56,846 bases of DNA from a virus. Location: IMG/VR virus record IMGVR_UViG_3300032046_003054, positions 1 through 56,846 of that record, one strand, 5' to 3'. Under the pieces are notes generated by a model. That model was not told the origin of the DNA. It did no database searches and was given only the letters and a program-made list of their open reading frames with translations. Below are positions 4,176-51,364 of this stretch, in pieces; the stretch's first letter is position 1, and each line of letters begins with the position of its first letter. The translations under genes were made by a program, and so were the position numbers.

Positions 4176-4201
4176 CTCCGTAAGGCTTTGTATTATTTAA
4201 T

Positions 4202-4229
4202 ATTATAATTAATGAAGCGTGTGTGTCAA
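4202..4229 (-). promoter_or_regulatory. Sigma-70 promoter for the portal unit
   Basis: Minus strand TTGACA (4224-4229), a 16-base spacer, and TATAAT (4202-4207): both hexamers are perfect consensus. It drives a short leader that immediately meets the terminator hairpin at 4135-4175. Confidence 0.85.
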
Positions 4230-4235
4230 GCATTT

Positions 4236-4430
4236 TTAATCATTTGATAAACAAAAGGTTTCTTCAACTGTAATAATTTTTGGTTTTCCATTGTTGATTG
4301 TTATTTCCTTAACCTCTTTTTTATCAAAATAAATTTTGCCGAAGTTCATAACTTCAATCCTGTTAACAAGATTGTATAGTTCCCTATCGTACTTTTTTAA
4401 TATTATAATTTTCTCATTATCTTTTTCCAT
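4236..4430 (-). CDS. Hypothetical protein, 64 residues
   Basis: Charged small protein (DNEKIIILKKYDRELYNL) with no recognised domain. Its start overlaps the end of the glycosyltransferase at 4417-5271 by 14 bases, making it the last gene of the glycan island before the portal promoter. Confidence 0.6.
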   Translation of the reverse strand: MEKDNEKIIILKKYDRELYNLVNRIEVMNFGKIYFDKKEVKEITINNGKPKIITVEETFCLSND

Positions 4431-5271: not shown

Positions 5272-5273
5272 AA

Positions 5274-6346
5274 TTATATTTTCGTGTTTAATGCTTTTGA
5301 AATCAAATTTCGCCAGTCACTCTGGAAACGTTCCTTGCTAAATAATTTTAGAGCGGTCTCCTTTCCCCTCTGACCGATTTCCACCGCTTCCTTGTAATTG
5401 AATATGCACCACGCTATCTTTTTTGCGGCATCCTCTGGGTCATCCCTGCATATAAAACCATTGACCCCGTCTTCTATGAAAGTGTCGGCATCCTGATGCT
5501 TTGTTGAAACCACACAGCATCCGCTGAACATCGCCTCAGTCCTCGTCCTCGGCATTGGCGAGCCGATTGTCGGGTTGAAATACACCAGCGTCTTTGACAT
5601 AAAATCACGATACTCTTCAAAGGAAGCGAAGTTGGAGTCCTGTGCAATCCATATCATCTCTATCCCATATTTGTTTTTCAGAAGCTCTCTGGTTTCGTTA
5701 AAAAGGTTTCTCCCGTAATACTTCTCCCCGATACCTGCGGCAGAAATAAAGGTGGCACACCTCGGCTCCTTGACATTATCACGCCAGTCCTTCTCGTCCA
5801 GCCCGTGGATTATTGTCTGACCCCAGCCCCACTGCTCCCTCGCCTTGTGAGAATTGACCACCATCTCCCTGACATTCCTGTTGCTCTTGACAAGTTCCTC
5901 CATTTTCTTTTTAGCCCAGACCATTGAGTTCTCTTCTGTCGCCCCGTATCCGTCCAGAACACACATTTGCATAAACATTTCGGGGTAGACAGGCGTCCCG
6001 TGATTTATCACTATAATCGGGATATCATCTATCTGCTCCAAGAGTTGCCTGAAAAGTTTCGCCTTTCCCAGATGGAGAACAAGACACTGCTGGTCTGCGT
6101 GCAGAATTGCCAAGTCGTATTTCCCCTTCTCGTAATAAGGCGTCCACTTCAAGTGCGAAGGCATCATCCTCGCCCTGTTGTCCCACTTCCTTGTGTAGTT
6201 TATAAGATAAGTCCAGTCAATAAAGTCCATCTTCAAAAGTTCCGCCTGATGGGAAATATGCTTTTTCAGTGCCACGGAACTGAGAAGACCCTGATTTTTC
6301 GGGTTGGTAGTTCCGTGGCACTTTTTATATTATTATTTATTTCCAT
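5274..6346 (-). CDS. GT4-type glycosyltransferase, N-terminus interrupted by 11 nt
   Basis: The body (from about 6260) is a GT-B glycosyltransferase: WTYLINYTRKWD, IIVINHGTPVYPE, then SPMPRTRTEAMFSGCCVVST and DDPEDAAKKIAW. Its in-frame starts (GTG 6275, ATG 6230) cut away the conserved beginning. In another frame, ATG 6346 reads 26 residues ending RKIRVFSVPWH and stops at TGA (6266-6268); the body resumes at CAT ATT TCC CAT CAG (HISHQ). Removing 11 nt joins these as SVPWHISHQAELLK, as expected for the family, giving 353 residues. Either a frameshifting insertion or translational bypass; see findings. Confidence 0.75.
6268..6322. repeat. 14-bp inverted repeat at the interrupted glycosyltransferase start
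   Basis: AGTGCCACGGAACT (6268-6281) and AGTTCCGTGGCACT (6309-6322) are perfect inverted copies with a 27-base loop. In the mRNA the 3' arm contains the codons for V-P-W-H, the last His codon and the first base of the TGA. Possible takeoff stem-loop, or the footprint of an inverted duplication. Confidence 0.85.
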
Positions 6347-6391
6347 ATTGTTTTGTTTAAAAATAATTTTTCCAATAATCTCTACGACCTT

Positions 6392-14812: not shown

Positions 14813-15574
14813 TTATTTTATCTCGTAATAAGGAATATCCATCCTGCGAGGATATCCGATTTTTGTCATCTGTTCGTCCATATAAGCCAAGAAGTCCTCC
14901 AAGAACTCCCACTGGTGATACTTCTCCAATTCCCAGGAATGTGACCATGCTTCAAACCTCCCGCCCTCCTCAATCACCTCGTCAAACTTTGCCTTTGCAT
15001 ATTCCGTCCAAACAAGCAGGTTCGGCACCTTTTCATATTCTGTTATCTCACAACTGTTGACAATGTCGTATTTTCTAAATGGCATTATGTGAACAGTCGG
15101 TCTCGCCTCAAAAGGGTCTTTGGGAAAATCTATACAACCAGCCTTCACGGTTCTCGCCTCTAAAAAACCAGCCCTCTTGACCACTTCCTTGACCCTGTCG
15201 CTGAACCTGCCCCTCGGATAGCAGAACCTCCTGACCTCATAGTTCGGATTGATATTTGTCCTGATGACACTTTCCAGCATCTTCTTCCCCTCAACAATCT
15301 CGTATTCCAGCTCTTTGTCGGTAAGTTCGTTGAACTCCCTCGGGTGCGTGACGCTGTGTGCCCCAATCTCAAACAAGTCCTTCGTTATCTTGCACATCTC
15401 ACAGTTCGGCAGTGTGCCAGCCAACTGCCTGACCTGATGGTCTGACAAATCCCTCGCCTTAACTGGAATGTAGAATACCGCAGGTATCTTGTATTTAATC
15501 AGCATATCCGCAAGAGTGAGGTCAAGTTGGTCACCGTCGTCAAAACTCGCAAATATTTTTATTCTTTTTGACAT
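14813..15574 (-). CDS. Polysaccharide deacetylase-like (CE4/NodB fold)
   Basis: Start set at ATG 15574 (MSKRIKIFASFDDGDQLDLT); a TTG six codons earlier is less likely. FDDGD carries the catalytic and metal-binding aspartates, IGAHSVTHPREF the metal-binding HxxxH, and RRFCYPRGRFSDRV motif 3. These enzymes remove N-acetyl groups from surface glycans or peptidoglycan. 253 residues. The upstream HNH gene runs 16 bases into its start. Confidence 0.88.
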   Translation of the reverse strand: MSKRIKIFASFDDGDQLDLTLADMLIKYKIPAVFYIPVKARDLSDHQVRQLAGTLPNCEMCKITKDLFEIGAHSVTHPREFNELTDKELEYEIVEGKKMLESVIRTNINPNYEVRRFCYPRGRFSDRVKEVVKRAGFLEARTVKAGCIDFPKDPFEARPTVHIMPFRKYDIVNSCEITEYEKVPNLLVWTEYAKAKFDEVIEEGGRFEAWSHSWELEKYHQWEFLEDFLAYMDEQMTKIGYPRRMDIPYYEIK

Positions 15575-16065
15575 ATAAAATAATTTATCCAATAATTTCT
15601 ATTATGATTGGTTTTTAAATGACAATCATTACATAAAGTTATCAGATTATTCGGATTGCAATTCTTTTTATTATAATCTATATGATGAACGGTCAATTTT
15701 CTTCTTTCTTCTAATTCTGTTTTTCCACAAACTTTACATTTTCTTCTGTCCCTATTCCTGATGACTTCTTTCAAATCCTCATTAAACTCCAACCCGTATG
15801 GCTCAAAAGAGCTTCCATTATTCCAAAAGGGATGATTTTTTCCTTTCTTAAATTCTGATTTCGGATGATTTCCAATTTTAAATTCAGTTTTAGGAGAAGA
15901 ATGTTGACCTTTATGTGATTCTATCATTTTTTTTCTTGCTTCTTCTGTGGGTCTTCTTCCTATTGCTTTTTCTTTTATTTTATTTTTTGTTTCATCTGAA
16001 ACAATATGACCTTTTTGAAAGGTATAAGCGTTTTTGTATTTGGGATGTCCTTTTGGAAATGCCAT
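15559..16065 (-). CDS. HNH homing endonuclease (NUMOD3-type)
   Basis: 168 residues. The N-terminal half carries helical DNA-binding repeats (SDETKNKIKEKAIGRRP; EEARKKMIESHKGQ) and GxxHPFWNNG. The C-terminal half is the HNH site: two CxxC pairs around LTVHHIDYNKKNCNPNNL followed by ITLCNDCHLKTN. It belongs to a five-member family in this window (25177, 33616, 49905, 52453). It lies abutting the deacetylase and has its own promoter (16074-16102), as a freestanding mobile endonuclease would. Confidence 0.93.
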   Translation of the reverse strand: MAFPKGHPKYKNAYTFQKGHIVSDETKNKIKEKAIGRRPTEEARKKMIESHKGQHSSPKTEFKIGNHPKSEFKKGKNHPFWNNGSSFEPYGLEFNEDLKEVIRNRDRRKCKVCGKTELEERRKLTVHHIDYNKKNCNPNNLITLCNDCHLKTNHNRNYWINYFICQKE

Positions 16066-21320: not shown

Positions 21321-21837
21321 TTTTTTGTATTATTTCTATCTTAATTTTATTTATATCCTCTTCCGCCCCGATGCCCAGCTTCTGGATGTTAATTGGTAGC
21401 CCCAATTCTATTTGTATTCGTTTGTATATTTCACTAATACTATCTGAATATTGTTTAAAAAAAGTATAATCATTTTTATTCAAAGGTTTTTCAGGATTTG
21501 GATTCACTATTCTTCCAAGTATTTCAAGATATTTTGAGTCTAAACCAAAAAGCAATTTTTTATTAATTAAAAGGTCTTGAAGGGATATTTTTAACTTTTC
21601 CATTAACTCTTTATCTGCTTGTTTTTGTATATTTTCTACTCTTTTTTGTTTCCAAACTTTTTTCTCTTCTGTCCAACCCTCAACTTTGCTTTTTATCCAT
21701 CCGCTGTGTTCCACCGTTTCCGCACCCAATTTTGACTTAATAAAAGTAAATGATTCTAATATATCAGAATTAAAAAATTCCTGCTTCAAAGCATCCCAGT
21801 CATATTTGGCTCTTCCTTCTTTTATTTCTTCTGTCAT
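21262..21837 (-). CDS. Putative terminase small subunit
   Basis: 191 residues, largely helical and charged. The assignment rests on position (directly upstream of and overlapping TerL) and on the pattern of an N-terminal helical region (DWDALKQEFFNSDILESFTF) followed by an oligomerisation helix (SISEIYKRIQIELGLPINIQ), common in phage TerS. No strong motif, so moderate confidence. Confidence 0.6.
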   Translation of the reverse strand: MTEEIKEGRAKYDWDALKQEFFNSDILESFTFIKSKLGAETVEHSGWIKSKVEGWTEEKKVWKQKRVENIQKQADKELMEKLKISLQDLLINKKLLFGLDSKYLEILGRIVNPNPEKPLNKNDYTFFKQYSDSISEIYKRIQIELGLPINIQKLGIGAEEDINKIKIEIIQKNDGNKPEEHNSIPEEPAGV

Positions 21838-23054
21838 AGTTTTGTTGCCTTTTGATTAGTAAATTTTTCAAAACGGTCAATAATAACTTGACAATACTTT
21901 TCATCTATTTCCATCATATAACATTTTCTATTTAATTGTTCGCAGGCGATTAGGGTGCTTCCTGAACCACCAAAGAGGTCTAATACTATTTGATTTCTTT
22001 CAGAATATCTTTCTAAAATTTCTTTCATCAAATTTAATTGTTTAGGACAACTATGTCCCCCCACATCTTTTTGTCTTATATTATTAATTTCAAAAATATC
22101 GCTATTCTCTACAATAAATCTTTTTGCTGTTTCTACATTTTTAATAACTTCTTCGTCTAAAATCTTTAAGTCTCCTGTTAAAATATCATTTGGAATTTTT
22201 CTTCTTTTAATTTTTTTAGCATAAATTAAAATCGGTTCCCAAATACTAAATAAACTAATCCTACTTCCACTTGTTTTATTTCTTGCTATCCAAATTGCTG
22301 TTCCTAATGGTCTTTCTATATTATACCACATCTTCAAATTCCATTTCCCAATAGTCAAAATAATAATAGGAACAAATTTTATAAGTTCTCTAAACCATAA
22401 TTCACACCATTCTCTGTATTCTTTGGTTTCTTTTTTATCCAAAAAATCCCAATAATCATAACCAATATTATATGGCGGGTCACAAAAAGAAATATCCGCC
22501 TTCTCTCCCCCCATCAGCTTTTCCACATCTTTCTTTTTTGTGCTATCCCCACATAATAATCTATGATTTCCAAGTTGGTATAAATCCCCCAATTTAACCA
22601 ATGGTTCTTTAATTTTTTCGTATTCCTCCTCTGCATCAAAATCATCTTCATTGGTTTTTAATCCAAAAATCTCATCTAATTCATCTGATTCAAATCCCAC
22701 ATCTTTTAACATATCTTCATTAAAATTTGCCAATTCTTCAAAATTCCATTCACCCAAATTTTTATTTGCTCTCAAAAGATATTCCCAATGTTCTTCTTCG
22801 GTTAATTGTCTATTCGGCACTCGGACATCTATTTCCTCTCCTTGTTTCCCGTCTAATTTCAAAAGAATTATTCTTTGATGCCCTGAGATTATCCTATTAT
22901 CCAAATTTATTGCGGGAATTTCTACCAAATTAAACTTCTTTAAAGATTTCTTCAAATCTTCCGCTTGCTTTTCGGTCATTTGTCTTGGATTCCCTTCTGT
23001 CGGGATTAACTCTCCAATTTTTCTCTTTTCGGTATGCCAAATTAATTTTTCCAT
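21834..23054 (-). CDS. ParB-like domain fused to DNA methyltransferase (DPPY type)
   Basis: 406 residues. Residues 10-110 are a ParB-like domain (LIPTEGNPRQMTEKQAEDLK; IISGHQRIILLKL). From 150 a class-beta methyltransferase: ADISFCDPPYNIGYDYWDF with catalytic DPPY at 192-195, and LDLFGGSGSTLIACEQ near 363 as the SAM site. DPPY enzymes methylate adenine N6 or cytosine N4. Common in phages as protection against host restriction. 4-base overlap with TerS. Confidence 0.94.
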   Translation of the reverse strand: MEKLIWHTEKRKIGELIPTEGNPRQMTEKQAEDLKKSLKKFNLVEIPAINLDNRIISGHQRIILLKLDGKQGEEIDVRVPNRQLTEEEHWEYLLRANKNLGEWNFEELANFNEDMLKDVGFESDELDEIFGLKTNEDDFDAEEEYEKIKEPLVKLGDLYQLGNHRLLCGDSTKKKDVEKLMGGEKADISFCDPPYNIGYDYWDFLDKKETKEYREWCELWFRELIKFVPIIILTIGKWNLKMWYNIERPLGTAIWIARNKTSGSRISLFSIWEPILIYAKKIKRRKIPNDILTGDLKILDEEVIKNVETAKRFIVENSDIFEINNIRQKDVGGHSCPKQLNLMKEILERYSERNQIVLDLFGGSGSTLIACEQLNRKCYMMEIDEKYCQVIIDRFEKFTNQKATKL

Positions 23055-23131: not shown

Positions 23132-23170
23132 AAAGTTATAGGCTCAAATCTGCTGACACCCTATAACTTT
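23132..23170 (-). repeat. 11-bp inverted repeat spanning a stop codon
   Basis: AAAGTTATAGG (23132-23142) pairs perfectly with CCTATAACTTT (23160-23170) around a 17-base loop. The glycosyltransferase stop codon lies in one arm. It lacks a T run, so it is probably not a terminator; mRNA processing or stability is possible. Confidence 0.7.
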
Positions 23171-23931
23171 GCCGATAATCTCCTCTGGCCTTCCAAATAC
23201 AGCTTATTCCAAGAATAGTTCGGTTCAAACATTTTATGCTTATCATTCTTTATTATCTTACAATAATCTGGATATTTTTTCATTAAATAAATACAGTGTT
23301 CTTTAACAAGTTCTCCGTTCCTATAAAAAACTTCAAGCCCCCCTTTCTGTGTCGCCATTTTGTGAACAAACATATACTCATTCCAAGTAGCAGTTTTATA
23401 TCCATTCAAAAGAAGTCTTGCCGTTAATTCCCTATCATTAAACATTTTCAAGTTTTCATCATACCCTCCCGCTTTTTTCAACTTTTCAGCATCAATAAAA
23501 ACCAATCCCCAGCCTTGTGTAATCATTTTTATCGGTTTCTCATAATACCAATTATGTCCTATAAAACTAACGCTCAATTGTGCCAAGTCAAAATTCTTAA
23601 TTATAGCTTCACCCTCTTTCAAAAATATGTCAATCTCTTCTGGTTTAACAGTTTCCGACTTTTCTCTTGTTATTCTTTTTTTAAGCCCATAAATATCATC
23701 ATCACTAAATAGATAGTATTTCTCTTTATTTTTAAGCGTATAATCTATTAAAGCATTTGAAAAATATCCGAAGCCAGCATCATTTTTTTCCAGTTTAACT
23801 ATTTCTAAGTCTGGATTTTCTTTTTTATATTCATCATAAAACTGCGGTTCAACAAATAGAACTATTTTCTTGTCAAATATCTTTTTAAGGGAGAATTGTA
23901 GTCGTTGTCGGCTTCCAACTAATATCTTCAT
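23161..23931 (-). CDS. Glycosyltransferase, possibly DNA-modifying (TAGT-like)
   Basis: 256 residues with a GT-A layout: MKILVGSRQRLQFSLKKIFD, KYYLFSDDDIYGLKKR (DDD metal site, about residue 77), TQGWGLVFIDAEKLKKAGGY and FNDRELTARLLLNGYKTATW. This differs from the surface-glycan GT2s of the island and recalls the TET/JBP-associated glycosyltransferases that glucosylate modified bases in phages. The neighbours (ParB, radical SAM, DNA methyltransferase) support a DNA target, but this is inference. Confidence 0.7.
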   Translation of the reverse strand: MKILVGSRQRLQFSLKKIFDKKIVLFVEPQFYDEYKKENPDLEIVKLEKNDAGFGYFSNALIDYTLKNKEKYYLFSDDDIYGLKKRITREKSETVKPEEIDIFLKEGEAIIKNFDLAQLSVSFIGHNWYYEKPIKMITQGWGLVFIDAEKLKKAGGYDENLKMFNDRELTARLLLNGYKTATWNEYMFVHKMATQKGGLEVFYRNGELVKEHCIYLMKKYPDYCKIIKNDKHKMFEPNYSWNKLYLEGQRRLSAKL

Positions 23932-25190
23932 TGGTTTTGAAAGTTATCATTAACTTTATAAATTATATTTCCCTCTTGGTCAATTCCCATTGGCTTCAAA
24001 TATCCTGCAAAATACAGATAAGGGCAGTATCCTTGTTTCTTGGTTGTATTCCACAAAGACCTTACATATTCTTTCCCATTCTGTATCTTCCTTTTCCTTG
24101 AACACATTCTACTTCTCGCTATCCAAATCTCTCCACTCTTGAAAACCTGTGCCCAATCAATACTCGCTTCCACATCTTTCCAATAAACTATGCCTTTTTC
24201 CTTCGCAATTTTCAATGCCAAATTAAATGGCGAAGTCATAAAATTACAACTATCTGCTAATCCGCAACAACTTAGATTATCATTTAAAAATTTGAAATGC
24301 GGGTCTGAAATTGCAAAGCGTAATCCCAATTCGTGGCATAATTCTTTCATTCTATAAACATATTTCTCTTTTAGTTTTGGATTCAATCGCATATAAGAAA
24401 CTGCACCCGTGCTCAATTTCCTGTAATACTCAAAAATATCATATCCCAGCACTTTGCTTAATATCTCATATCTTTCCCGAACTTTTACCCCAGCCATTCT
24501 CTGAATGCAAAGCCATTCAACTGATATGGCTTCCGCCCCGCATTCGTGTGCCTTCCTTATCAAATCTTCATAACAATTACTCGTAATGCCTTGCAGGAAT
24601 GGTCTAATCCTAATTATCTGGGGAATGCCCATATCGTGATAAAACTTCATCGTGGCGAACCTTTCTGACGAACTGGGAGCGTTAACTTCTATCTGTCTAG
24701 CTTCTTCATCATCATCAGTTATAATCGTCCACATTATAACAAAGTTTTTTGACCCCCTAAATGCTTCAATGTATTCTGGCTTCATCAGGGTTCTCGCCCC
24801 TTTTGTGCAAATACGAATAGGATAATCTAATTCTCTAAAAAACTTTACCAATTTCAAACTCTCACCTTCTTTTTCTTCTATGGTATCAAATGGGTCTGTC
24901 AATCCGCCCCACTGCATCATCTTTTTGTTTTTAATGAAAATCTCATAAAACTTTTTTGATTGTTTATCTCCTGCTTTCCCACTAAAAATCTTTTTAATCC
25001 TTTCAATGTTCACTTTTGTAATCCAATCACCCTTCTCTTCTCTTGAATTACAAGCTGGATTATTAGCCCTTATCATCCAAGAAAAACAGTAAAGACATTG
25101 ATAACCACAGGTGCTATACGTGTCAAATGTTAATGGAACTGAACAATCCATCGTTTCGTACGATAAACGAGGAGAATTATAGGTCGCCTT
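23928..25190 (-). CDS. Radical SAM enzyme, SPL-like
   Basis: Start chosen at ATG 25190 (MKATYNSPRLSYETMDCSVP), because the longer frame overlaps the HNH gene. Cys29, Cys33 and Cys36 in TCGYQCLYCFSW form CxxxCxxC. MQWGGLTDPFDTIEEKEG and IRICTKGARTLM match spore-photoproduct-lyase-like radical SAM proteins that act on nucleic acids. Further cysteines near the end (SCCGLADSC, RMCSRKRKI). About 420 residues. Its ATGA overlap with the glycosyltransferase argues for a shared pathway. Confidence 0.85.
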   Translation of the reverse strand, partial: KATYNSPRLSYETMDCSVPLTFDTYSTCGYQCLYCFSWMIRANNPACNSREEKGDWITKVNIERIKKIFSGKAGDKQSKKFYEIFIKNKKMMQWGGLTDPFDTIEEKEGESLKLVKFFRELDYPIRICTKGARTLMKPEYIEAFRGSKNFVIMWTIITDDDEEARQIEVNAPSSSERFATMKFYHDMGIPQIIRIRPFLQGITSNCYEDLIRKAHECGAEAISVEWLCIQRMAGVKVRERYEILSKVLGYDIFEYYRKLSTGAVSYMRLNPKLKEKYVYRMKELCHELGLRFAISDPHFKFLNDNLSCCGLADSCNFMTSPFNLALKIAKEKGIVYWKDVEASIDWAQVFKSGEIWIARSRMCSRKRKIQNGKEYVRSLWNTTKKQGYCPYLYFAGYLKPMGIDQEGNIIYKVNDNFQNQ

Positions 25191-25743
25191 CATTTTGGAA
25201 ATAATTTGTCCACTTTTTTCTTCCATAATTTGTTTTACTATGACAACTATTACATAAAGAAATCAAATTTTTAGGGTCTGAATTTTTCTTATTATAATCT
25301 ATATGATGAACATACAAAACTTTAAATTTTTTCTTACACAATCTACAATGATATTTATCTCTTTTTCTAATAAGTATTTTTAATTCTTCATCAAAATTAA
25401 AGTCATATGGCTCTCTTGAAATTCCACCCCGCCAGTTTGAATTATCTTTTCCCTTATATTGTGGTGGTTTTATTCCTAATCTTAAATTAGCTTCTCTTTG
25501 TTTTTGTTTTGTTTCTTCTGAATGCTTTTTACCCGTAAAGCCCTTACTAAATAATGGATGTCCTTTTTTGAATCCACATTTTCCTTCTGCCACAGCATTT
25601 TTGATACTTTTTCTATGTTTTTCAGATAATTTCCTACCTATGTGAAATTTTCTAATTTTTTCCTTTGTTTCATCTGTATGATGTTTCCCAAGCCAACCAT
25701 TATTGCCTTTCAAAAATCTACCTTTTTTATCTCTTTTAATCAT
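25177..25743 (-). CDS. HNH homing endonuclease (NUMOD3-type)
   Basis: 188 residues, beginning MIKRDKKGRFLKGNNGWLGK. Repeats DETKEKIRKFHIGRKLSEKH and EETKQKQREANLRLG bind DNA; KDNSNWRGGIS and CRLCKKKF lead to VLYVHHIDYNKKNSDPKNL and LCNSCHSKTN, the HNH site. It overlaps the radical SAM start, the same placement as at 15559 (against the 5' end of a conserved gene). Confidence 0.93.
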   Translation of the reverse strand: MIKRDKKGRFLKGNNGWLGKHHTDETKEKIRKFHIGRKLSEKHRKSIKNAVAEGKCGFKKGHPLFSKGFTGKKHSEETKQKQREANLRLGIKPPQYKGKDNSNWRGGISREPYDFNFDEELKILIRKRDKYHCRLCKKKFKVLYVHHIDYNKKNSDPKNLISLCNSCHSKTNYGRKKWTNYFQNEGDL

Positions 25744-26566: not shown

Positions 26567-26950
26567 TTATTTAATTTTATTTAGAAATTCATAAAAATCC
26601 CTCCACTCGTTTTTTATCTCCACGATGTCTCCGTTCGGATTTTTAACCTGCCTCCACTTTAAGAAGGCGTCTTCAACTTCCTCCTGCACAAACAAAACCT
26701 TGCCCAAACTTTCAGCCAAATCTTCAATTATCTTGTCCTGACATTCAATTTTCGCCTTCGCCTTTGCTTCAATCTGGCGAACACGCTCCCTCGTCAAGTA
26801 TAGTTTATCACCTATCTCCTGCAAGGAAAATCCCTGCTCCCTCAGACTCAGGACGGTCTTCTCGTTCTTTTTCAGTCCGGCAATAAAAGGATAGACAAGG
26901 TCTTTATCCTTTATTTCGGTTTCAAGTATAATTTTTATCTGATTTTTCAT
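26567..26950 (-). CDS. Sigma-70 region 4-like protein
   Basis: 127 residues. KTVLSLREQGFSLQEIGDKL followed by YLTRERVRQIEAKAKAKIEC (about residues 31-70) is the region 4 helix-turn-helix that reads -35 boxes, with the characteristic RERVRQIEAKA. There is no region 2, so it is not a full sigma factor; it may be a late-gene regulator or a DNA-binding co-activator. Confidence 0.85.
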   Translation of the reverse strand: MKNQIKIILETEIKDKDLVYPFIAGLKKNEKTVLSLREQGFSLQEIGDKLYLTRERVRQIEAKAKAKIECQDKIIEDLAESLGKVLFVQEEVEDAFLKWRQVKNPNGDIVEIKNEWRDFYEFLNKIK

Positions 26951-27869: not shown

Positions 27870-28016
27870 TCATTCTTTTTCCTCGTGTCTAATTGTTGCT
27901 TTGACATAACCTTCCTCTTTTGTAGCAGGTCTAAAAGTTTTTTTAACTACTCTCATACCGCATTTTTGGCAATACTCTCGGTTTTTATCTAAAATATGTT
28001 CACAATTATTTTTCAT
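27870..28016 (-). CDS. Zinc-knuckle mini-protein, 48 residues
   Basis: ATG 28016, MKNNCEHILDKNREYCQKCG. CxH and CxxC spacing suggests one zinc site. Basic tail. Part of the run of small metal-binding proteins in this region. Confidence 0.6.
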   Translation of the reverse strand: MKNNCEHILDKNREYCQKCGMRVVKKTFRPATKEEGYVKATIRHEEKE

Positions 28017-28045
28017 TTTCTTTCTCTTTAATAATATTCCTCAGA

Positions 28046-28196
28046 GAGAGTGGGCTGGGCGAGAGGTGCAAGCTCTGACCTTGCATTTCCCCGATGGTCG
28101 GGGAAGTTAGTTTTGCACTAACGATGGATATTCCCAGCTGGAATATTACCCACTCCTCTCTCACTCAACCCGCTCTCCCTACCTATGGGTGGGGGT
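28046..28196 (-). ncRNA. Structured multi-arm intergenic RNA, copy 1
   Basis: A closing helix (GAGAGTGGGCTGGG near 28046-28059 with CTCAACCCGCTCTC near 28162-28175) and an inner helix (28061-28066/28155-28160) enclose four hairpins: 28067-28085, 28087-28105 (8-bp stem, 3-base loop), 28106-28122 and 28128-28146. It is followed by the CCCTACC-GGGTGGG hairpin up to 28196. A second copy at 28752-28862 keeps the outer helices and changes the arms. It lies in the untranslated part between minus-strand genes, so it is transcribed with them. No known family recognised. Confidence 0.65.
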
Positions 28197-28478
28197 TGTT
28201 GTGTAATATATCGGCATTCCTAAATTCCTAACTTCAAATACTATCCTTTCACGCTCTTTTATATATGCACCGCAAAATATCATTAATGCCGACAATTCAT
28301 TTTCATCAAGTAAATTTGTCTGAGCTAAATTTCTACCAAAAATAAACATATCAGCTGGCCAATTTATATTACTTTTTTTAGATGTAATCGTAAATTGCGG
28401 GGTATTATCTTTATCTTTCCAAAATTGCATTGAAAATAAAGCATTTTTTATTAACTTGTAATCTCTACTTTTCTTCAT
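28179..28478 (-). CDS. Hypothetical protein, 99 residues
   Basis: MKKSRDYKLIKNALFSMQFW, with NWPADMFIFGRNLAQTNLLD centrally. No known family. Its stop codon (TAG) lies inside the repeated CCCACCCATAGGTAGGG hairpin, so the element overlaps the coding end. Leader GGAAAAAGAAAGTAAATAAA is shared with the next genes. Confidence 0.6.
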   Translation of the reverse strand: MKKSRDYKLIKNALFSMQFWKDKDNTPQFTITSKKSNINWPADMFIFGRNLAQTNLLDENELSALMIFCGAYIKERERIVFEVRNLGMPIYYTTTPTHR

Positions 28479-28502
28479 ATTTATTTTATTTACTTTCTTT
28501 TT

Positions 28503-28527
28503 CCTCTCCCTACCTATGGGAGGGGGT
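28503..28527 (-). repeat. Short copy of the CCCTACC-type hairpin
   Basis: CTCTCCCTACCTATGGGAGG matches the 3' hairpin of the elements at 28046 and 28752 but lacks the multi-arm part. The stop codon of the 28514-28720 gene is inside it. Confidence 0.7.
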
Positions 28528-28720
28528 TAAAGTATTTTTCTATTTCTTCAAATTGATTTTCTTCTAAGAATTTAATTTGATATTTTTTCTTTAACGCTCC
28601 CCATTCTTCTTTTTTTAATCCCATAGCTTTAACAAGACCTATAATGTCATCTCTATTGTGCACTCCGTGGCAAAAACCAAGTAATTGCTGTTCAGCTTTC
28701 ATTAGATTTATGTTGTTCAT
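28514..28720 (-). CDS. Hypothetical protein, 68 residues
   Basis: Start moved to ATG 28720 (MNNINLMKAEQQLLGFCHGV), which follows the same A/T-rich leader as its neighbours; the longer frame runs through that leader. Helical (DIIGLVKAMGLKKEEWGALK), resembling small wHTH-like modules, but not identified. Confidence 0.6.
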   Translation of the reverse strand: MNNINLMKAEQQLLGFCHGVHNRDDIIGLVKAMGLKKEEWGALKKKYQIKFLEENQFEEIEKYFNPLP

Positions 28721-28751
28721 ATTTATTTTATTTAATTTCTTTTTCCTAAAA

Positions 28752-28862
28752 GAGAGTGGGCTGGGCAAGGGATATGTGGAACCGCCCCACCTACTTTACT
28801 GCAGTAAGTAGCACTCATCTTTATCCCCTACTCAACCCGCTCTCCCTACCTATGGGTGGGGG
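28752..28862 (-). ncRNA. Structured multi-arm intergenic RNA, copy 2
   Basis: The same closing helix as copy 1 (GAGAGTGGGCTGGGC with CTCAACCCGCTCTC), an inner helix GGGATA (28769-28774) with TATCCC (28822-28827), and two arms: GTGG...CCAC (28776-28790) and a long stem CTACTT...AAGTAG (28791-28811). Ends with the identical CCCTACC hairpin. It follows directly after the stop of the 28863-29087 gene. Confidence 0.65.
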
Positions 28863-29087
28863 TTAACCATCGTGAATACATAACTCCCATTTACATTTAG
28901 GACATTTTATCGCTGTATAATAATCTCCAACTCCCACTATGAATTCTGTACCACCGCATTTCTTACACTTTACTTTTGAAGCAGGGACTTTGTCATAACA
29001 TTGACCTATTTCAAATTCATCATCATCTGTTTTTATGATTACGTCTTCATAATTTGGTTGTTCATAGTCTTCGTTAAATTTCTTCAT
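28863..29087 (-). CDS. Zinc-ribbon protein, 74 residues
   Basis: VKCKKCGGTEFIVGVGDYYT and IKCPKCKWELCIHDG give two CxxC knuckles of a rubredoxin-like zinc ribbon. Acidic N-half (DVIIKTDDDEFEIGQCYD). Common shape in small phage proteins; role unknown. Confidence 0.75.
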   Translation of the reverse strand: MKKFNEDYEQPNYEDVIIKTDDDEFEIGQCYDKVPASKVKCKKCGGTEFIVGVGDYYTAIKCPKCKWELCIHDG

Positions 29088-29124
29088 ATTTATTTTATTT
29101 TACTTTCTTTTTCCTTCTCGGGGG

Positions 29125-29376
29125 TTAAATCGCACTTCTCGCATACTTATCAAAAATCTTGTTTCTTTTAATCTTATCAGTTTCTACTTTGTATTTTTCA
29201 AAGTATTTATCCTCCATATAATAAGCCATCATATAAGCCCAAGGGTCTGAATCAAAAGTGGATTTACTTACTACCCCGCCACATAATGAACCGCCACGAT
29301 TCCTAAAAGTGCTTTCTCCCTTCTCTAAAATTTTAGGTTCTTCTCTTTTTTCTTTTGATATTGAGTTTGTGGGCAT
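29125..29376 (-). CDS. Hypothetical protein with MPTNSISKE start, 83 residues
   Basis: N-terminus MPTNSISKEKREEPKILEKG is shared with the genes at 29382 and 29980, but the rest (STFDSDPWAYMMAYYMEDKY) is unrelated to them. No known family. Confidence 0.6.
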   Translation of the reverse strand: MPTNSISKEKREEPKILEKGESTFRNRGGSLCGGVVSKSTFDSDPWAYMMAYYMEDKYFEKYKVETDKIKRNKIFDKYARSAI

Positions 29377-29381
29377 AGGAG

Positions 29382-29723
29382 TTAAGATTTTAATAATGAT
29401 TCGTTTTTACAATTTGAACATTCTGCTTTTTTCTCTAATGTTGTGATTGCAACATGAGTCCCCATTACCCTACCCAACGCTACAATTTGTTTAGCGTGTT
29501 TTTCACAGCAATCTACTGGTCCAGTCACCCAATGGACTGTGCAAGTCGCTGGATATTTTATTTCTTTTTCCTTCTCCTGCCACCAAGTTTTATATCCTTT
29601 TGCTTTTGGGCAACTTATTAAATGCCCTATTTCCTCTCCGGTTTCTTCTGTAAAAGGACAGATGCACTTTGCTTCGGCTTTACTTCTTTTTCTTTCTTCT
29701 TTTGATATTGAGTTTGTGGGCAT
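29382..29723 (-). CDS. Cysteine-rich protein with MPTNSISKE start, 113 residues
   Basis: MPTNSISKEERKRSKAEAKC, then CICPFTEETGEEIGHLISCP and a late CSNC pair; CCEKHAKQIVALGRVMGTHV resembles small phage proteins that carry a His/Cys metal site. Function unknown. Confidence 0.65.
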   Translation of the reverse strand: MPTNSISKEERKRSKAEAKCICPFTEETGEEIGHLISCPKAKGYKTWWQEKEKEIKYPATCTVHWVTGPVDCCEKHAKQIVALGRVMGTHVAITTLEKKAECSNCKNESLLKS

Positions 29724-29730
29724 AGGGGGT

Positions 29731-29922
29731 TTAGGTTGTTTTTTTAGATGAATTAAATTCTTCCGCCAATTTTTCTACATCTATGCCATTACTATCAACT
29801 TCTTTTCCACATTTAATACATTCATAATGTCCACCTATCGCTCCCCGAGGTTCTTCTCTTGCATATTCCATTACTCCTATGATTTTTGCTTTACAGCATT
29901 TAGATTTTATTTCTTTTTCCAT
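29731..29922 (-). CDS. Zinc-ribbon protein, 63 residues
   Basis: KSKCCKAKIIGVMEY and GGHYECIKCGKEVD form a four-cysteine zinc ribbon. Starts in the leader ACTAACCACTATGGAAAAAG shared with 30139 and 30303. Confidence 0.75.
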   Translation of the reverse strand: MEKEIKSKCCKAKIIGVMEYAREEPRGAIGGHYECIKCGKEVDSNGIDVEKLAEEFNSSKKTT

Positions 29923-29979
29923 AGTGGTTAGTTTATTTAATTTCTTTTTCCTTCTCGGCTTCTTTTGATATGTGGTTAG

Positions 29980-30132
29980 TTAATTTTCTTCTAATAATTT
30001 AATAATTCCCAATGTTATGGCTTTTAAATAGTAATTACTTATTCTCCAAACAGAATCGTCTTCTGTGGCTTTTTCTATCAACTTTTTCATTTCTTTAATT
30101 ATTTCTTCTTTTGATATTGAGTTTGTGGGCAT
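29980..30132 (-). CDS. Mini-protein with MPTNSISKE start, 50 residues
   Basis: ATG 30132: MPTNSISKEEIIKEMKKLIE, then WRISNYYLKAITLGIIKLLE. Third use of this N-terminus. Mostly helical; unknown role. Confidence 0.6.
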   Translation of the reverse strand: MPTNSISKEEIIKEMKKLIEKATEDDSVWRISNYYLKAITLGIIKLLEEN

Positions 30133-30732: not shown

Positions 30733-31041
30733 TTAATTTGTATTCTCTTGTTTTCTCAAAATACGACAAGGGATAATATAAACCTCCACATCACTTCCTT
30801 TTATTAATTCTATCGGATATTTTTGGATTTCGGTTGCTTTTATACATTTTATTTGTTCGTGTTTAAACCAGGTCAAATCAATTATTCCATCTAACTCCGC
30901 CCTGTAATCCACCAGTTTCTTATTAAGACCCAGATACCATTCCCCTTCTTTGCCTCCATACTTTTGCCAATAGTTAAAAAGTGGGGTTTGAATATGGATT
31001 CTTGTCGCATTTCTCTCTTTGTGTTTTTTTAAGTATTGCAT
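30733..31041 (-). CDS. Hypothetical protein, 102 residues
   Basis: MQYLKKHKERNATRIHIQTP, with FNYWQKYGGKEGEWYLGLNK and a beta-rich end (GSDVEVYIIPCRIL). Overlaps the initiator gene by 13 bases, so probably coupled to it. No known family. Confidence 0.6.
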   Translation of the reverse strand: MQYLKKHKERNATRIHIQTPLFNYWQKYGGKEGEWYLGLNKKLVDYRAELDGIIDLTWFKHEQIKCIKATEIQKYPIELIKGSDVEVYIIPCRILRKQENTN

Positions 31042-31775
31042 AGTTCCAAGTATTTTTTAACTGCTGTTTCAATTTTGAAATCCTCTCCACCCCACCCCTT
31101 AAGCCACGCATATGCTTTATCCAGCATCTCACAAGCCCTATCCGTCTGACCATCGCACAGTTCAAGGAGTTGTTTCGCCGCCCGCAAATGTCTTTTATAA
31201 TCATCTGGCTCTTGGTTGGTGATTTGCAGATAATAATCCACTACGATAGCTATTTTATTCATATTTGCAGGGCGAAACTTTAGTTTCGCATTATAATTAT
31301 TCTTATGTTTTTCTTTAATGTTATTCTTTGAGGTGTTTTGGGACCCACTTTCTGGTGCTATTAGACCCACTTTCGTTGTTTTAGGCTCCACTTTCAAGGT
31401 GGTCGTTTGAGCACCACTTTCTATTTTATTAGCCAAAACCCCATTTTCATATTCTTCTATATTTATCTTCCACAAATCAACCATTAAAAACTGTCTTACA
31501 CTTCCACCCCTTACTTTTACTGGCTCTGTTTCTTTTATCCACTTTCTTGCTAAAAGTTTTTTAATTGTATTTCCAACGGTTTGTTTATGAGCCCCCATTT
31601 TTTTTGATAAAGTGTTTATTGAGGCATAACAACTTCCCTTTTCTCCCGCAATTCTTTTCATTATCAAATATAAACTTTGCTCATAAGCAGTAGAATGATT
31701 CACCACCATATTAGGTATTTGGGTATAATATTTTCTGTCTCCGCTTTCATCTATGATTTGTATTTTTTCTTCCAT
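31029..31775 (-). CDS. Replication initiator-like protein (helix-turn-helix)
   Basis: 248 residues. YYTQIPNMVVNHSTAYEQSL and ASINTLSKKMGAHKQTVGNT with IKKLLARKWIKETEPVKVRG form the winged helix of HTH_36/DnaD-like phage replisome organisers. The C-terminal 90 residues are helical (VVDYYLQITNQEPDDYKRHL), as in helicase-loading domains. It is the first gene after a strong promoter (31794-31822) with an AAAGGA ribosome site. Confidence 0.8.
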   Translation of the reverse strand: MEEKIQIIDESGDRKYYTQIPNMVVNHSTAYEQSLYLIMKRIAGEKGSCYASINTLSKKMGAHKQTVGNTIKKLLARKWIKETEPVKVRGGSVRQFLMVDLWKINIEEYENGVLANKIESGAQTTTLKVEPKTTKVGLIAPESGSQNTSKNNIKEKHKNNYNAKLKFRPANMNKIAIVVDYYLQITNQEPDDYKRHLRAAKQLLELCDGQTDRACEMLDKAYAWLKGWGGEDFKIETAVKKYLELCNT

Positions 31776-32669: not shown

Positions 32670-32702
32670 ATTTTTAGTTTATTTAAGCGTTCTAATTGCC
32701 TC

Positions 32703-32981
32703 TTACAGAGGTTTTCGTGGCAGAACCGAACCGATGCCCGTCTCCACTGAAAACCCCTGTTTTTGAAGCCTTTTGGCGACTATCTGCTTATGTCGGCACG
32801 GTCTTTTGAAGACACCAGCTGGACAGTCGCAGACCAGATGCCCGTCCCTGAAATACTCAACAATGTGCCAGCTTCCTTTCTTGCTTTTGCTCGGAACTTT
32901 GAAAGCCTTGATTGCCAGCATTTCCCTTGAAGATGAAAAATCTTTGCAGGCTTTCATTTCAAAAAGGAATGTCTTTAACAT
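32703..32981 (-). CDS. SWIM zinc-finger protein
   Basis: 92 residues. HLVCDCPAGVFKRPCRHKQI (about residues 48-67) is a SWIM finger (CxCx(n)CxH), which binds DNA or proteins in recombination factors. Overlaps the SSB end by 23 bases, suggesting cooperation with it. Confidence 0.82.
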   Translation of the reverse strand: MLKTFLFEMKACKDFSSSREMLAIKAFKVPSKSKKGSWHIVEYFRDGHLVCDCPAGVFKRPCRHKQIVAKRLQKQGFSVETGIGSVLPRKPL

Positions 32982-33391: not shown

Positions 33392-33619
33392 TTATTTTTT
33401 ACTTTTTTCCTCAACTAACTTTGATACTGCCTCATTTAACTCTTTGGCTTTCAATTCTTTGGTTTTTCCAATAATAGCATAAATTATTACTGCAAAAATA
33501 CCAAATAATAAGCCCATAAAGATAGCCAATCCCTTGCTCCTTCCATTTCTTTCGGCTATCCTATAACACCAATATGCTAAACCTGCTATGATTACAAATG
33601 GTATAATTATTTCTGTCAT
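33392..33619 (-). CDS. Small two-helix membrane protein
   Basis: 75 residues: IIIPFVIIAGLAYWCY and GLAIFMGLLFGIFAVIIYAI are two membrane helices; the tail is charged (KELNEAVSKLVEEKSKK). Function unknown. Overlaps the HNH end by 4 bases. Confidence 0.65.
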   Translation of the reverse strand: MTEIIIPFVIIAGLAYWCYRIAERNGRSKGLAIFMGLLFGIFAVIIYAIIGKTKELKAKELNEAVSKLVEEKSKK

Positions 33620-34092
33620 ATTTTTATTTTATTTAATTGTTTTTGTTTCCGACCTTTGTTTCTATAATTAGGAGTTAATTGATGACAATTTTTACAAAGA
33701 GTAATACCATTATCAATGATAAATCTTAATCGTGGATAGTTAATCCATTCTTTAATATGATGAGTTTCTAAATTGCCTCCAACTTTTTTGCAAACTTGAC
33801 ATCTATAACCATCTCTTGCAAGCACTGCTTTTCGCCAAAAATACATTTTTGAACTTGCTCTTTCTAATTGATTTTTTAAAGATACGCCACCTTTCCAATT
33901 TGGATTTTTATCACCTCTCATTTTTTGAGAACATTTTAAATTTCTTTTGCCCCACATTGGATTATTTTCTCCCATCATTCTCTTAGAGTGTTCTGGTCGT
34001 TTTTTTCCTAAATTCCATTTATTACCCAATTTTGCTTTGGCCATTTTATCTCTATGCTCTTTTGTAAATTTTGTTCCTTTTATTGTGGACAT
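33616..34092 (-). CDS. HNH homing endonuclease (NUMOD3-type)
   Basis: Start set at ATG 34092 (MSTIKGTKFTKEHRDKMAKA). Repeats EHRDKMAKAKLGNKW and GENNPMWGKRN precede GDKNPNWKGGVSLKNQLER. CQVCKKVGGNLETHHIKEWI and LCKNCHQLTP give the HNH site. About 158 residues. It overlaps the upstream gene by 13 bases. Confidence 0.92.
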   Translation of the reverse strand: MSTIKGTKFTKEHRDKMAKAKLGNKWNLGKKRPEHSKRMMGENNPMWGKRNLKCSQKMRGDKNPNWKGGVSLKNQLERASSKMYFWRKAVLARDGYRCQVCKKVGGNLETHHIKEWINYPRLRFIIDNGITLCKNCHQLTPNYRNKGRKQKQLNKIKI

Positions 34093-34271
34093 TTTTTTAT
34101 AAAACAAGAATTGCAAAAATGTTCGTGCTCTCTCTTTTCTTTCCCATTTATTTCGGCTATTGAATACTCAGGTATAATATATCCACAAAAATTACAGAGT
34201 GGCAACCCGCATTCGCAACAATAGTGATTTGCTTCTATTTTATTTTCTATATCGTAGGCACAGGTTTCCAT
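34080..34271 (-). CDS. Zinc-binding mini-protein, 63 residues
   Basis: ANHYCCECGLPLCNFCGY and EHEHFCNSCFIKKC give a dense Cys/His pattern for one or two zinc ions, as in B-box or RING-like mini-domains. Unknown role. Confidence 0.7.
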   Translation of the reverse strand: METCAYDIENKIEANHYCCECGLPLCNFCGYIIPEYSIAEINGKEKREHEHFCNSCFIKKCPQ

Positions 34272-36593: not shown

Positions 36594-36624
36594 TTATAAA
36601 CATAATTTTTTAGCCATATTTTTT

Positions 36625-36667
36625 AGACGAGGAGAGAATTGATTGCTTCAAAACTCTCCCCTCGTCT
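36625..36667 (-). repeat. 16-bp inverted repeat
   Basis: AGACGAGGGGAGAGTT pairs with AATTCTCTCCTCGTCT along 16 positions (two G-U) with an 11-base loop, 52 bases after the GHKL gene stop. No T run follows on the minus strand. Possible factor-assisted terminator or RNA-protecting hairpin. Confidence 0.7.
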
Positions 36668-36718
36668 GCAATCAATTTTTATTTCTTTTCTGGTATTTCG
36701 CCAGAGAAACCCTTTTTT

Positions 36719-38116
36719 TTACTTAAAGAAATCGGGCTCTTTAAGTGCTATTACTATTAAGTCACCCGCAAGGCCAGTCAGGCATTCGTGGTATGACATC
36801 TCGGTATGGTTTCCTTTGCTGTGAGCCAATTCGTGGATTATCAAGCCGAGCATCTCGCCTTTCAAGCCGTCCCACCAGTCCGCAGGAATCTTGCTGACAT
36901 TGAAAGATAAAACATTGCCCCCGAAGTCTGCCATTTCCGTTGCCTCGCTCTTGAAGAAGCTCACTTTTATCTTTATCCCCAAAATTTGTTCGGCAATTTT
37001 TGCCACCAATAGTCCTATCTTTTCCTGTTTGGAATTTGGCTCAACGGTGGTTGCTCCCACCAAACTTTTCCCGAATAAATCAGTGGAAGAACTCATCAAG
37101 TCATCCTTTTTAATTTTATCCCACTCATCCTTAGAAAGCTCTGAACCATAAACCACATTGAACCCGTGAGAAATTGCCTCATCTATTGAGTTAGGGTCAA
37201 AAGGATTTGCCACAACAACTTTGTCCCCGAACCTTTTCTTAACTATTTCACTGACCGCCTCTTTCACTATCCTTCCATTGCCAGTTGCCTCTCTCACCCA
37301 AATATCTGAACTCTCGGACTTGTCTATTTCCTGATAGGTCATATTAAGAACTTCTGCAAAAATATTGCTTAGATATTTCTGCGAAACTGTTTCCCTATCA
37401 ATTCCCATAGGAACTTTTTGCTGGATGCTGATGTCATATTTACAGTCTATCTCACAGATAGGAAGCCCCATCTCATAGAGAATTGCCTTTTCAAAACTCT
37501 TTGCATAAACCCATATCTCTGTTTTCCTTTGCATTTTTTTCATTATTCCATTTTCCTCAATTTCCGTTTCAAGGCTTGTTGAAATTATCTGCTCGGGCGT
37601 ATGGTAGTGTCTTTCAATTCCGTTGACTATAAACTCAATCCCCTCCGGCACAAGATACTTTGAAATCTCATTAAGCATTTCATCGTATTCTTCCTTTTTC
37701 ATTTTAACCCATAAGACAACCTCGCTTCCCAGTTCTCTTTTTTGCATTACATTCCTTCTCCCTTCTTTTTCAAAAACTATGGTTCCTTTGGTTGTGGTTA
37801 TCTTTGCCCTTGTCGCCAATGCTATCGCTTGTTTCTCTCCCACATTAAACCTTCCCCTTTTCTGCGGGTCGGTTCTTTTAGAAGTGGACTTGAATAAAGT
37901 GAAGGCATCGGTCAAGTCTTTGAATCCCTCCGGGCTATCATCTATCACTTTTATCTGAGCTTCCTTTCCCTCATAAGACAATTCAACCTCACACTTTTTG
38001 ATATTCTCATCCCAAGCATTCTGAACCAACTCTCTTAAGATATAGTGTTTTGGCTTTCCTGCTTGTAAAGACTTAAGTCCCTCCTTTGATACTTCAAACC
38101 AATTTTTGCTTTTCAT
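36719..38116 (-). CDS. GHKL (Hsp90/MutL-type) ATPase with C-terminal HExxH motif
   Basis: 465 residues. RELVQNAWDEN (29-38) is the N box, VIDDSPEGF (57-65) the G1 box and GRFNVGEKQAIALA (88-101) the G2 box of a Bergerat ATP pocket. Residues 140-300 form a transducer-like region. Residues 370-465 end with GLIIHELAHSKGNH (HExxH at about 428-432) followed by a conserved Glu/His run, the signature of a zinc metalloprotease. It lies in the early block. ATP-driven proteolysis or a chaperone-like sensor are both possible. Confidence 0.82.
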   Translation of the reverse strand: MKSKNWFEVSKEGLKSLQAGKPKHYILRELVQNAWDENIKKCEVELSYEGKEAQIKVIDDSPEGFKDLTDAFTLFKSTSKRTDPQKRGRFNVGEKQAIALATRAKITTTKGTIVFEKEGRRNVMQKRELGSEVVLWVKMKKEEYDEMLNEISKYLVPEGIEFIVNGIERHYHTPEQIISTSLETEIEENGIMKKMQRKTEIWVYAKSFEKAILYEMGLPICEIDCKYDISIQQKVPMGIDRETVSQKYLSNIFAEVLNMTYQEIDKSESSDIWVREATGNGRIVKEAVSEIVKKRFGDKVVVANPFDPNSIDEAISHGFNVVYGSELSKDEWDKIKKDDLMSSSTDLFGKSLVGATTVEPNSKQEKIGLLVAKIAEQILGIKIKVSFFKSEATEMADFGGNVLSFNVSKIPADWWDGLKGEMLGLIIHELAHSKGNHTEMSYHECLTGLAGDLIVIALKEPDFFK

Positions 38117-49252: not shown

Positions 49253-51364
49253 TTACGGAATTGAACTCAATTTTCGCATAGCCGCTTCAAGTACACAAGT
49301 ACCACCAATACGTTCCACAACTCTGATTCCGACCTGGTCATACTCCCATGCCGTCCCCGCCTCCCCTGACACAGTAACAGTGATGGTCTTTCGGTCGCCA
49401 AGCCAGTATCCCAGCTTAAAGTCCCCGAAATAAATCTCGTCATCTCCAATCCAGTTATTTTCAATAACAGGATAGCCCTGAACCGTGGCTGGCTGTCCAG
49501 CGGACATAGGTTCTTGCCAGATGTATCTGTTATTACTATCCTTCACCTTTCTCAAATCTCTGATGTTAGAATTATTCGCCAGAATTATGGCATTCTTCCT
49601 GTATTTAGCAGGAAGTGCATAAATCAGGTCAATAACATCATCAAAATCAAGAAGTCCTGAACAGGTCACGGCTGTGATAGAACAATTAGCCAAACCAGTT
49701 GGTTGACCAGTGCCAGAACCTCGAGTGATAACCCTATCTTCTTCCTCTCTTAATGCTTCAGAAAACAAACCGATAATTAGTTGGGTGATATTGTAATCAT
49801 AAGCATCCTCAATCAATTCTTCTGCATTTATGTTATCGTAAGAGTTTTTTATCTCCTACTTCTCTATGTCTCCATAGAGGTCGGCATACATCATCTCCTG
49901 TTCTTTAAAAATTTATACACATTAGTTTAGAAAACTTTTCAATAAAGTATTTCCTGTTTTTTAAGGCATTTGATTTGTTGTGGCAAAGTGAACAAAGCGT
50001 AATTAGGTGGTTCGGTTCAATATCTTTCTTGTCATAAAAAATATGATGGACTGGGAAAGCCTTCTCTTCCTTTTTCCATTCCCTTTGGCAATTCCTGCAA
50101 GTATGATTATCTCTTTCTCTGATAAATTCCTTTAACCTTTCATCAAATCCGAAATTATATGGGAACTTTGAACTTCCCCCATTCCAATTTGGATTCTTCT
50201 CTTTCGCCAAGAATGGCTTATCTTTATTCCAAGGAATTCTACCGCTCATATTTTTTCTCGTCTCATCAGAAGCCTTTCTACCTATCGCCTTTATCCTTAT
50301 AATTTCCTTTGCTTTTGCAGAATGTTTTCTTCCCCACATAGGATTTTTCCTTCCAAATCTTGCACTTCCATACATTCCATTTTTAATCCCCAATTGAACC
50401 CCAAGTTTTGGATTTTCTTTTCTTCTCTTCACCATAGCATCGCTCAATTTCTTTCTTGTGTTTTCTGATATTGGTATTAACTTTCTAATTTTCCAAGCCT
50501 CTTTAAGCCTTCTTTTATGCTCTTCGGAGAATGTTTTTTTGGTTATCTTTTTCATAACCTTATTTTATACCTTTCCGAAGAGGTTGTCAATAATGTGTTT
50601 AAATTTTTAAAGAACAGAAGGACGGTTTTCGTGGGGATATTATTGTCCCATAAGGACTCAATCCCTATGCTCTACACCTTTCAAACCATTGCTGGTCTGA
50701 GTTGGCTCGGTATTGTCCATCTTGAAAGATGGGTGTCCACCGAATTTACCGCCTTTTTTATGCCCCAGATAATTAAGGCATACAATATCGCTGCCACCTT
50801 ATAAGCGGTCAGCGTCTTCTGATAGAATTCAGCGGAAGTTGTAGTCTTTTGCGTATTCTCAGCAGTCCAATAAACCTTCGGCTTTGCGGTTAATGAAGGG
50901 ATATTCATTGACACCCTCAACATCGGAACAACCCTAACCAGACTCCTCATCGTGTTCGGCTCTTCCAAATCACGGATAAGTTCCGCCCTAAACTCGGTGG
51001 GTACCAAGTAACCGCCATCGGCTGAAGTCCCCTCTGACAATGCTTTTAAGGCAACCCTATCTTTCTGGCAGAGTGCTGTGAAGAACCCTACAATCTTCTG
51101 CTCCTTCGTCAGGGCATTGACATCATCTTTGCTCACATCTTCCTTGCCAAAGATTTTTGTCATAAGGGTTGTGTCTTTCCTTGAAGTTTTCATCTGTTCA
51201 AGCATTGTCTTGATTTTATTCAAGCCCAAGCTTTTTTCAATCTTGGAAGTCAGTTTCTCAACTTCCTCGTCCAGTCCTTTTTCTGCATCAGGCTCTTTTT
51301 CTGGCTCTTTCTCTGGTTCTTTTTCAGGTTCTTTTTCTGGGTCTACTTTTTCTTCATCAATCAT
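49253..51364 (-). CDS. Major capsid protein (HK97 fold), split by an intron
   Basis: Exon 1 runs 51364-50776 and exon 2 49824-49253; joined they give 386 residues. The N-terminal 100 residues hold a Glu/Pro/Lys run (EKEPEKEPEKEP) and a helical scaffold-like delta region. Then GGYLVPTEFRAELIRDLEEP, KVAAILYASEELIEDAYDYN (junction inside the Ser), EALREEEDRVITRGSGTGQP and WEYDQVGIRVVERIGG follow the HK97 capsid pattern. Translated without splicing, each piece alone is defective. Confidence 0.92.
49905..50555 (-). CDS. Intron-encoded HNH homing endonuclease
   Basis: 216 residues, beginning MKKITKKTFSEEHKRRLKEA. NUMOD3-like repeats (SENTRKKLSDAMVKRRKENP; RFGRKNPMWGRKHSAKAKEI; DETRKNMSGRI) precede EKNPNWNGGSSKFPYNFGFD, CRNCQREWKKEEKAFPVHHI and LCSLCHNKSNALKNRKYFIE. 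Would cut intronless capsid genes to spread the intron. It lies between inverted-repeat arms 49898-49924 and 50591-50617, with its own promoter. Confidence 0.93.
   Translation of the reverse strand: MKKITKKTFSEEHKRRLKEAWKIRKLIPISENTRKKLSDAMVKRRKENPKLGVQLGIKNGMYGSARFGRKNPMWGRKHSAKAKEIIRIKAIGRKASDETRKNMSGRIPWNKDKPFLAKEKNPNWNGGSSKFPYNFGFDERLKEFIRERDNHTCRNCQREWKKEEKAFPVHHIFYDKKDIEPNHLITLCSLCHNKSNALKNRKYFIEKFSKLMCINF
50562..50590 (-). promoter_or_regulatory. Promoter of the intron endonuclease
   Basis: TTGACA (50585-50590), 17 bases, TAAAAT (50562-50567), then AAGGTT and ATG 50555: essentially leaderless. Same layout as the promoter at 39612. It allows endonuclease expression from inside the intron. 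Confidence 0.75.

Follow-up and report, generated by a model that had tools for sequence, protein, structure and literature searches.

Folded intergenic elements in the small-gene zone of a tailed phage as candidate gene-junction modules

Introduction

Two elements in the phage record IMGVR_UViG_3300032046_003054 have identical ends and unrelated interiors, and both lie between very small genes. The question is whether they act as folded RNA, as folded DNA or not at all, and what their position at gene junctions could mean. The window analyzed is the entire record (56,846 bases), which belongs to a tailed phage as judged by its portal, terminase, major head and tape-measure proteins, and the likely genes of this phage are carried by the minus strand. 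Junction repeats of the PeSL/ESAS type in phage small-gene zones are suspected gene-shuffling engines, the mechanism of which is little understood. Because bare, hairpin-only and full junctions are adjacent in this phage, and because shape is kept while sequence changes, the locus allows a direct test of folded RNA versus folded DNA.

Results

A zone of small genes with repeated starts

Both elements are located in a 2.5-kb minus-strand zone of tiny genes. The small-gene cluster is flanked by a replication-initiation-like gene (31029-31775) and a sigma-region-4 gene (26567-26950). Three repeated start types, each present three times, serve about 10 small genes in the interval 27.9-30.6 kb, namely TAACCACTATGGAAAAAGAA, ATGCCCACAAACTCAATATCAAAAGAA and the leader AGGAAAAAGAAA...AAATAAAATAAATATG, and five gene ends within the zone are marked by TAA(N)CCCCC. 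On the minus strand at 29350-30132, the repeated gene starts are joined to unrelated bodies: the first 27 coding nucleotides (MPTNSISKE...) are common to three different small genes, and TAACCACTATGGAAAAAGAA spans the stop/leader and start in three others. Across the whole record, an SD-like motif was detected at 11 of the 68 examined starts and was absent at 57, and the leaders are A-rich. This combination of SD-less starts and A-rich leaders suggests, from the sequence, that the host is probably an SD-independent initiator such as Bacteroidota.

Architecture of the elements and of the junctions

In gene direction, both copies start with the same 35 nt, AACCCCCACCCATAGGTAGGGAGAGCGGGTTGAGT, and end with the same 16 nt, GCCCAGCCCACTCTCT. 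These outer parts form a hairpin and a 15-step closing helix, the 15-nt strands of which make 13 pairs and two C-A mismatches (Table 1). The two elements with a common closing helix and hairpin are present where the original prediction had put them. It had placed the hairpin on the 3' side; because the genes are encoded by the minus strand, the hairpin is instead 5' in the RNA, directly after the upstream gene. The interiors (103 nt in copy 1 and 64 nt in copy 2) are unlike in sequence, as had been claimed (local alignment against shuffles, p = 0.53). Four enclosed arms had been seen in one copy and two in the other. Copy 1 indeed folds into four inner hairpins on either strand; the two hairpins of copy 2 were recovered on the plus strand only, the best fold of the transcribed minus strand being one long interrupted arm.

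Table 1. Features of the small-gene zone that are discussed in the text
Feature	Position	Strand	Remarks
Copy 1: four inner hairpins within the closing helix, preceded by the post-stop hairpin	28046..28197	minus	
Copy 2: hairpin and closing helix as in copy 1, other interior	28752..28864	minus	
Closing helix, 5' strand, copy 1	28163..28177	minus	GAGAGCGGGTTGAGT
Closing helix, 3' strand, copy 1	28046..28060	minus	GCCCAGCCCACTCTC
Closing helix, 5' strand, copy 2	28830..28844	minus	same letters as copy 1
Closing helix, 3' strand, copy 2	28752..28766	minus	same letters as copy 1
Hairpin-only junction, AACCCCCTCCCATAGGTAGGGAGAG	28504..28528	minus	leads straight into leader GGAAAAAGAAA
Bare junction, no hairpin	29104..29127	minus	stop TAA, CCCCC, then leader GAGAAGGAAAAAGAAA
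Repeated A-rich leader, AGGAAAAAGAAA(G/T)TAAATAAAATAAATATG	28715..28747	minus	other copies at ~28473-28505 and 29082-29115
Small gene 5' of copy 2	28863..29087	minus	74 aa, zinc-ribbon-like CxxC pairs
Small gene from copy 2 to hairpin-only site	28514..28720	minus	68 aa, stop within hairpin
Small gene from hairpin-only site to copy 1	28179..28478	minus	99 aa, hairpin encodes last codons
Small open frame 3' of copy 1	27870..28016	minus	48 aa, CxxC pair; read from sequence

The junctions of the zone form a graded series: bare, hairpin only, and hairpin plus multi-arm body. At 29104-29127, the gene end TAACCCCC abuts the leader GAGAAGGAAAAAGAAA. The predicted third site with the hairpin alone lies at 28504-28528, where CCCCC and GAGA are separated by a short hairpin stretch. 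At 28752-28864 and 28046-28197, the hairpin is followed by the multi-arm body, and the closing helix and multi-hairpin interior are found at two of the four junctions in the series. Each module extends from the stop codon of one small gene to a point immediately before the A-rich leader of the following gene, with the repeated leader directly 3' of copy 2 and a diverged leader 3' of copy 1. The expectation that stop codons of adjacent genes would sit in the hairpin holds for two of the three genes (TAG at 28179-28181 and at 28514-28516), but not for the third, whose TAA (28863-28865) shares bases with the A's that open the module and sits just ahead of the C run. Where the TAA is present, the TAA-CCCCC-hairpin stretch contains a stop in all three frames within 21 nt, which explains why neighboring genes terminate within or at the hairpin in different frames. 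Such three-frame stops, a feature noticed post hoc, occur in 0.09% of the shuffles of the module and in 0.4% of the 21-mers of the record.

Folding beyond chance and strand bias

As minus-strand RNA, copy 1 (28046-28174) and copy 2 (28752-28841) fold with z-scores of -5.8 and -4.5; the corresponding plus-strand values are -4.7 and -1.7. When the interiors alone were shuffled and the outer parts were held fixed, an equally stable minus-strand fold was obtained in 0 of 1000 cases for each copy, and an equally stable plus-strand fold in 1 of 1000 cases for copy 1 and in 53 of 1000 for copy 2. The minus-strand fold of the hairpin-only site is not significant (z = -0.8). In an inverted-repeat scan of the whole record (15-nt arms, at least 13 pairs with 7 G-C, spacing of 45-125 nt), more than two overlapping registers occurred nowhere except at the two elements, and among the 130-nt stretches of the window ranked by over-stability, copy 2 came first and copy 1 fifth. 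Another over-stable stretch, at 32701-32830, was discarded as RNA because it lies within a protein-like coding frame. The interior shuffles and the lack of a comparable inverted-repeat cluster elsewhere in the record demonstrate that the structures are not due to chance, in agreement with the original prediction, and, from two copies, that the sense RNA strand is favored.

Pairing is retained within the record despite changed sequence, as had also been proposed. Both interiors beat their shuffles and lengthen the closing helix (extension p values of 0.03 and 0.008). Five further pairs with partly different letters prolong the helix inward; two of them differ on both sides and one on a single side. 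With two sequences, this covariation count is weak on its own, being reached by 131 of 500 shuffles. The outer 15 steps of the closing helix are invariant and are therefore silent on selection for pairing, either way.

Searches for relatives

Exact scans of IMG/VR with 17-, 21- and 23-nt parts of the elements gave zero matches. The 17-nt pattern AGGGAGAGYGGGYTGAG was searched in viral and genome contigs, and among the matches listed, all appeared chance-like after a screen for the closing helix. Distant blastn searches against phage and plasmid collections yielded no relevant match. The covariance model R1 detected nothing in 396 genomes from the phylum of a Bacteroidales genome or in 380 from that of a Moraniibacteriota genome, both phyla being guesses at the host; in these phyla, a one-mismatch version of the hairpin pattern gave hits in 0 of 362 and 3 of 376, the latter in unrelated contexts and with about equal numbers of control hits. 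The covariance-model search for homologues that had been suggested at the outset recovered only the known sites when R1 was run on the window, on relatives and on other fetched contigs. No relatives emerged when one protein at a time, from a small gene, from the replication gene or the portal, was used as query. An alignment of the portal led to relatives that are 47-49% identical, and in the pieces of these that were examined, the small-gene zone has no counterpart. Overall, no relatives of the elements beyond chance were found in IMG/VR, the phage and plasmid collections or the guessed phyla, nor among the GTDB matches listed; near-identical records may have been omitted, and this absence is not proof. 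No homologue was seen in any relative, which counts in part against the original prediction. No match in the window reached the gathering threshold of Rfam 15, and scores near the elements were at chance level. ARAGORN found 0 tRNA or tmRNA genes in the window, and a tRNA reading of the elements was accordingly dropped.

Comparison with known systems

Among known systems, the elements come closest to ESAS (cluster K mycobacteriophages) and to PeSLs (T4-type phages), and they belong to neither. In cluster K mycobacteriophages, SAS and ESAS are short repeats at the starts of some non-structural genes, with ESAS spacers of mostly 4-13 bp (PMC3203893). Like ESAS, the elements are inverted repeats with a variable spacer (here, 15-nt imperfect arms and a 64- or 103-nt middle) just 5' of repeated starts; unlike ESAS, their long middle is itself folded and is preceded by a post-stop hairpin. 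The 13-bp SAS, GGGATAGGAGCCC, has no match in the record within two mismatches, and the few matches with three lie outside the small-gene zone. PeSLs (Arbiol 2010; Comeau 2014), as described in papers citing these studies, are stem-loop cassettes that recur between the small genes of a shuffled region, with a proposed role in gene exchange. The elements share with this description the repeated stem-loop cassettes among small genes and differ from it in their far larger, branched bodies and in lacking a sigma-70-type promoter or terminator tail on the gene strand. In a scan for sigma-70-type promoters only, no minus-strand promoter-like site was detected at 28040-28050, 28490-28530 or 28740-28870, and no U-tract follows the stem as would be expected of a PeSL terminator. 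Repetition amounts to two full copies, one hairpin-only site and one bare site, and no related phage with the zone was found. Despite the similar placement and repetition, we therefore do not file the elements under PeSL or ESAS, the sequence, promoter or terminator criteria of which fail here.

Integron attC sites have conserved ends and a variable palindromic middle and lie behind small genes; the folded site opens with RYYYAAC (5') and closes with GTTRRRY (3'). The elements are similar in all three respects, but their 5' strand contains GTTGAGT and their 3' strand GCCCAGC, the reverse of that order, and there are only two copies. The attC reading was dropped on account of this opposite order of the motif pair; no integron integrase was found among the scanned proteins of the record. 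Intergenic palindromes of the REP/MITE type are inverted repeats that are transcribed with the operon, and members of a family share their interior. The elements are likewise intergenic, presumably operon-transcribed inverted repeats, but they have unrelated interiors and only two copies. With no relative found in the searches, they look like private gene-junction modules of this phage.

Discussion

Proposed role and alternatives

We propose, at a probability of about one half, that the elements are gene-junction modules of a polycistronic minus-strand mRNA, working at the RNA level in a fast-changing small-gene zone. Their placement, strand bias and retained pairing are direct observations, and the minus-strand folds of both copies, the two compensatory double-sided differences, the three-frame stop, the exact stop-to-leader placement, the graded series of junctions, the repeated gene starts and the lack of a terminator-like site on the gene strand argue for such modules. 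The existence of only two full copies, the failure to find a homologue and the insignificant minus-strand fold of the hairpin-only site argue against them. Guessing from position and shape, a module would act in RNA through its shape rather than its sequence, as a rigid insulator between two frames that blocks translation running on past the upstream stop and leaves the next, unstructured leader accessible to ribosomes. It might also be a nuclease barrier, or a processing site for a double-strand RNase, and in this way determine how long each small-gene segment persists, and the identical outer parts could provide short homology for duplicating and exchanging genes and junctions. More speculatively, and improbably, the constant frame of post-stop hairpin and closing helix around swappable multi-hairpin inserts could represent a new class of phage RNA, in which the insert would set the partner or function and which would spread between small-gene junctions.

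Three alternatives each appear less probable than the junction modules. The elements could be recombinogenic or mobile DNA hairpins, non-autonomous and with conserved ends, that are inserted or exchanged at gene ends through pairing in single-stranded DNA, in a MITE-/REP-like or attC-like manner. The conserved ends with a variable palindromic middle, the bare and hairpin-only sites beside filled junctions, and the significance of the copy 1 fold on the plus strand and as DNA are all consistent with this possibility, which we nevertheless consider doubtful: the scanned proteins (part of the open frames) include no transposase, integrase or relaxase, no additional copy was found in the record or elsewhere, target duplication is not evident, and the fold of copy 2 is significant solely as minus-strand RNA. 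The same strand bias of copy 2 favors the functional RNA of the original prediction. The other option of that prediction, a mobile RNA element, is unsupported because the searches brought up neither an additional copy nor a homologue nor a mobility gene. Rather less likely, the palindromes could be functionless by-products of replication slippage or template switching that were copied by gene conversion. Identical outer parts are expected of a recent duplication or conversion, and two copies without detected homologues fit this origin as well, but the unrelated interiors are both structured and helix-extending, with 0 of 1000 shuffles matching the whole fold, and the elements are positioned exactly from stop to leader. 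Less likely again are trans-acting small RNAs excised from the mRNA, the interior of which would hit a host or phage target while the frame serves processing or protein binding. The enclosure of different interiors by the same frame and the very stable folds are compatible with such RNAs; against them, there is no minus-strand promoter-like site immediately 5' of either copy and no similarity to Rfam families, and targets are without support.

A role as intrinsic transcription terminators or attenuators between genes would agree with the intergenic position and with the clear hairpin-plus-U-tract terminators elsewhere in the record. However, the gene-strand tails, CUCUCUUUUAGG and CUCUCUCUGAGG, contain no U-tract, and a minus-strand scan of 26-33 kb revealed no terminator-like site. 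Given the lack of a gene-strand U-tract after the stem, the intrinsic-terminator reading was dropped, and the elements are very unlikely to terminate transcription on the gene strand.

Other features of the phage genome

Strong intergenic hairpin-plus-U-tract terminators on the minus strand (4061-4190, 6220-6390, 36600-36770 and 52880-53050) immediately precede A-rich, SD-less leaders. The record also contains five HNH/NUMOD3-type homing-endonuclease-like genes (15559-16065, 25177-25743, 33616-34116, 49905-50555 and 52453-52989), called by profile hits or by the similarity they share with these loci in relatives, and the head-protein region is broken up around two of these. At 21834-23054, 23161-23931 and 23928-25226, a DNA methylase adjoins a TET-associated glycosyltransferase-like and a radical-SAM-like protein, a group that is possibly a cluster for DNA-base hypermodification. 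In the 49%-identical relative L159, the portal match (3001-6195) covers about 3.2 kb for about 680 residues, which suggests an intein or intron insertion there.
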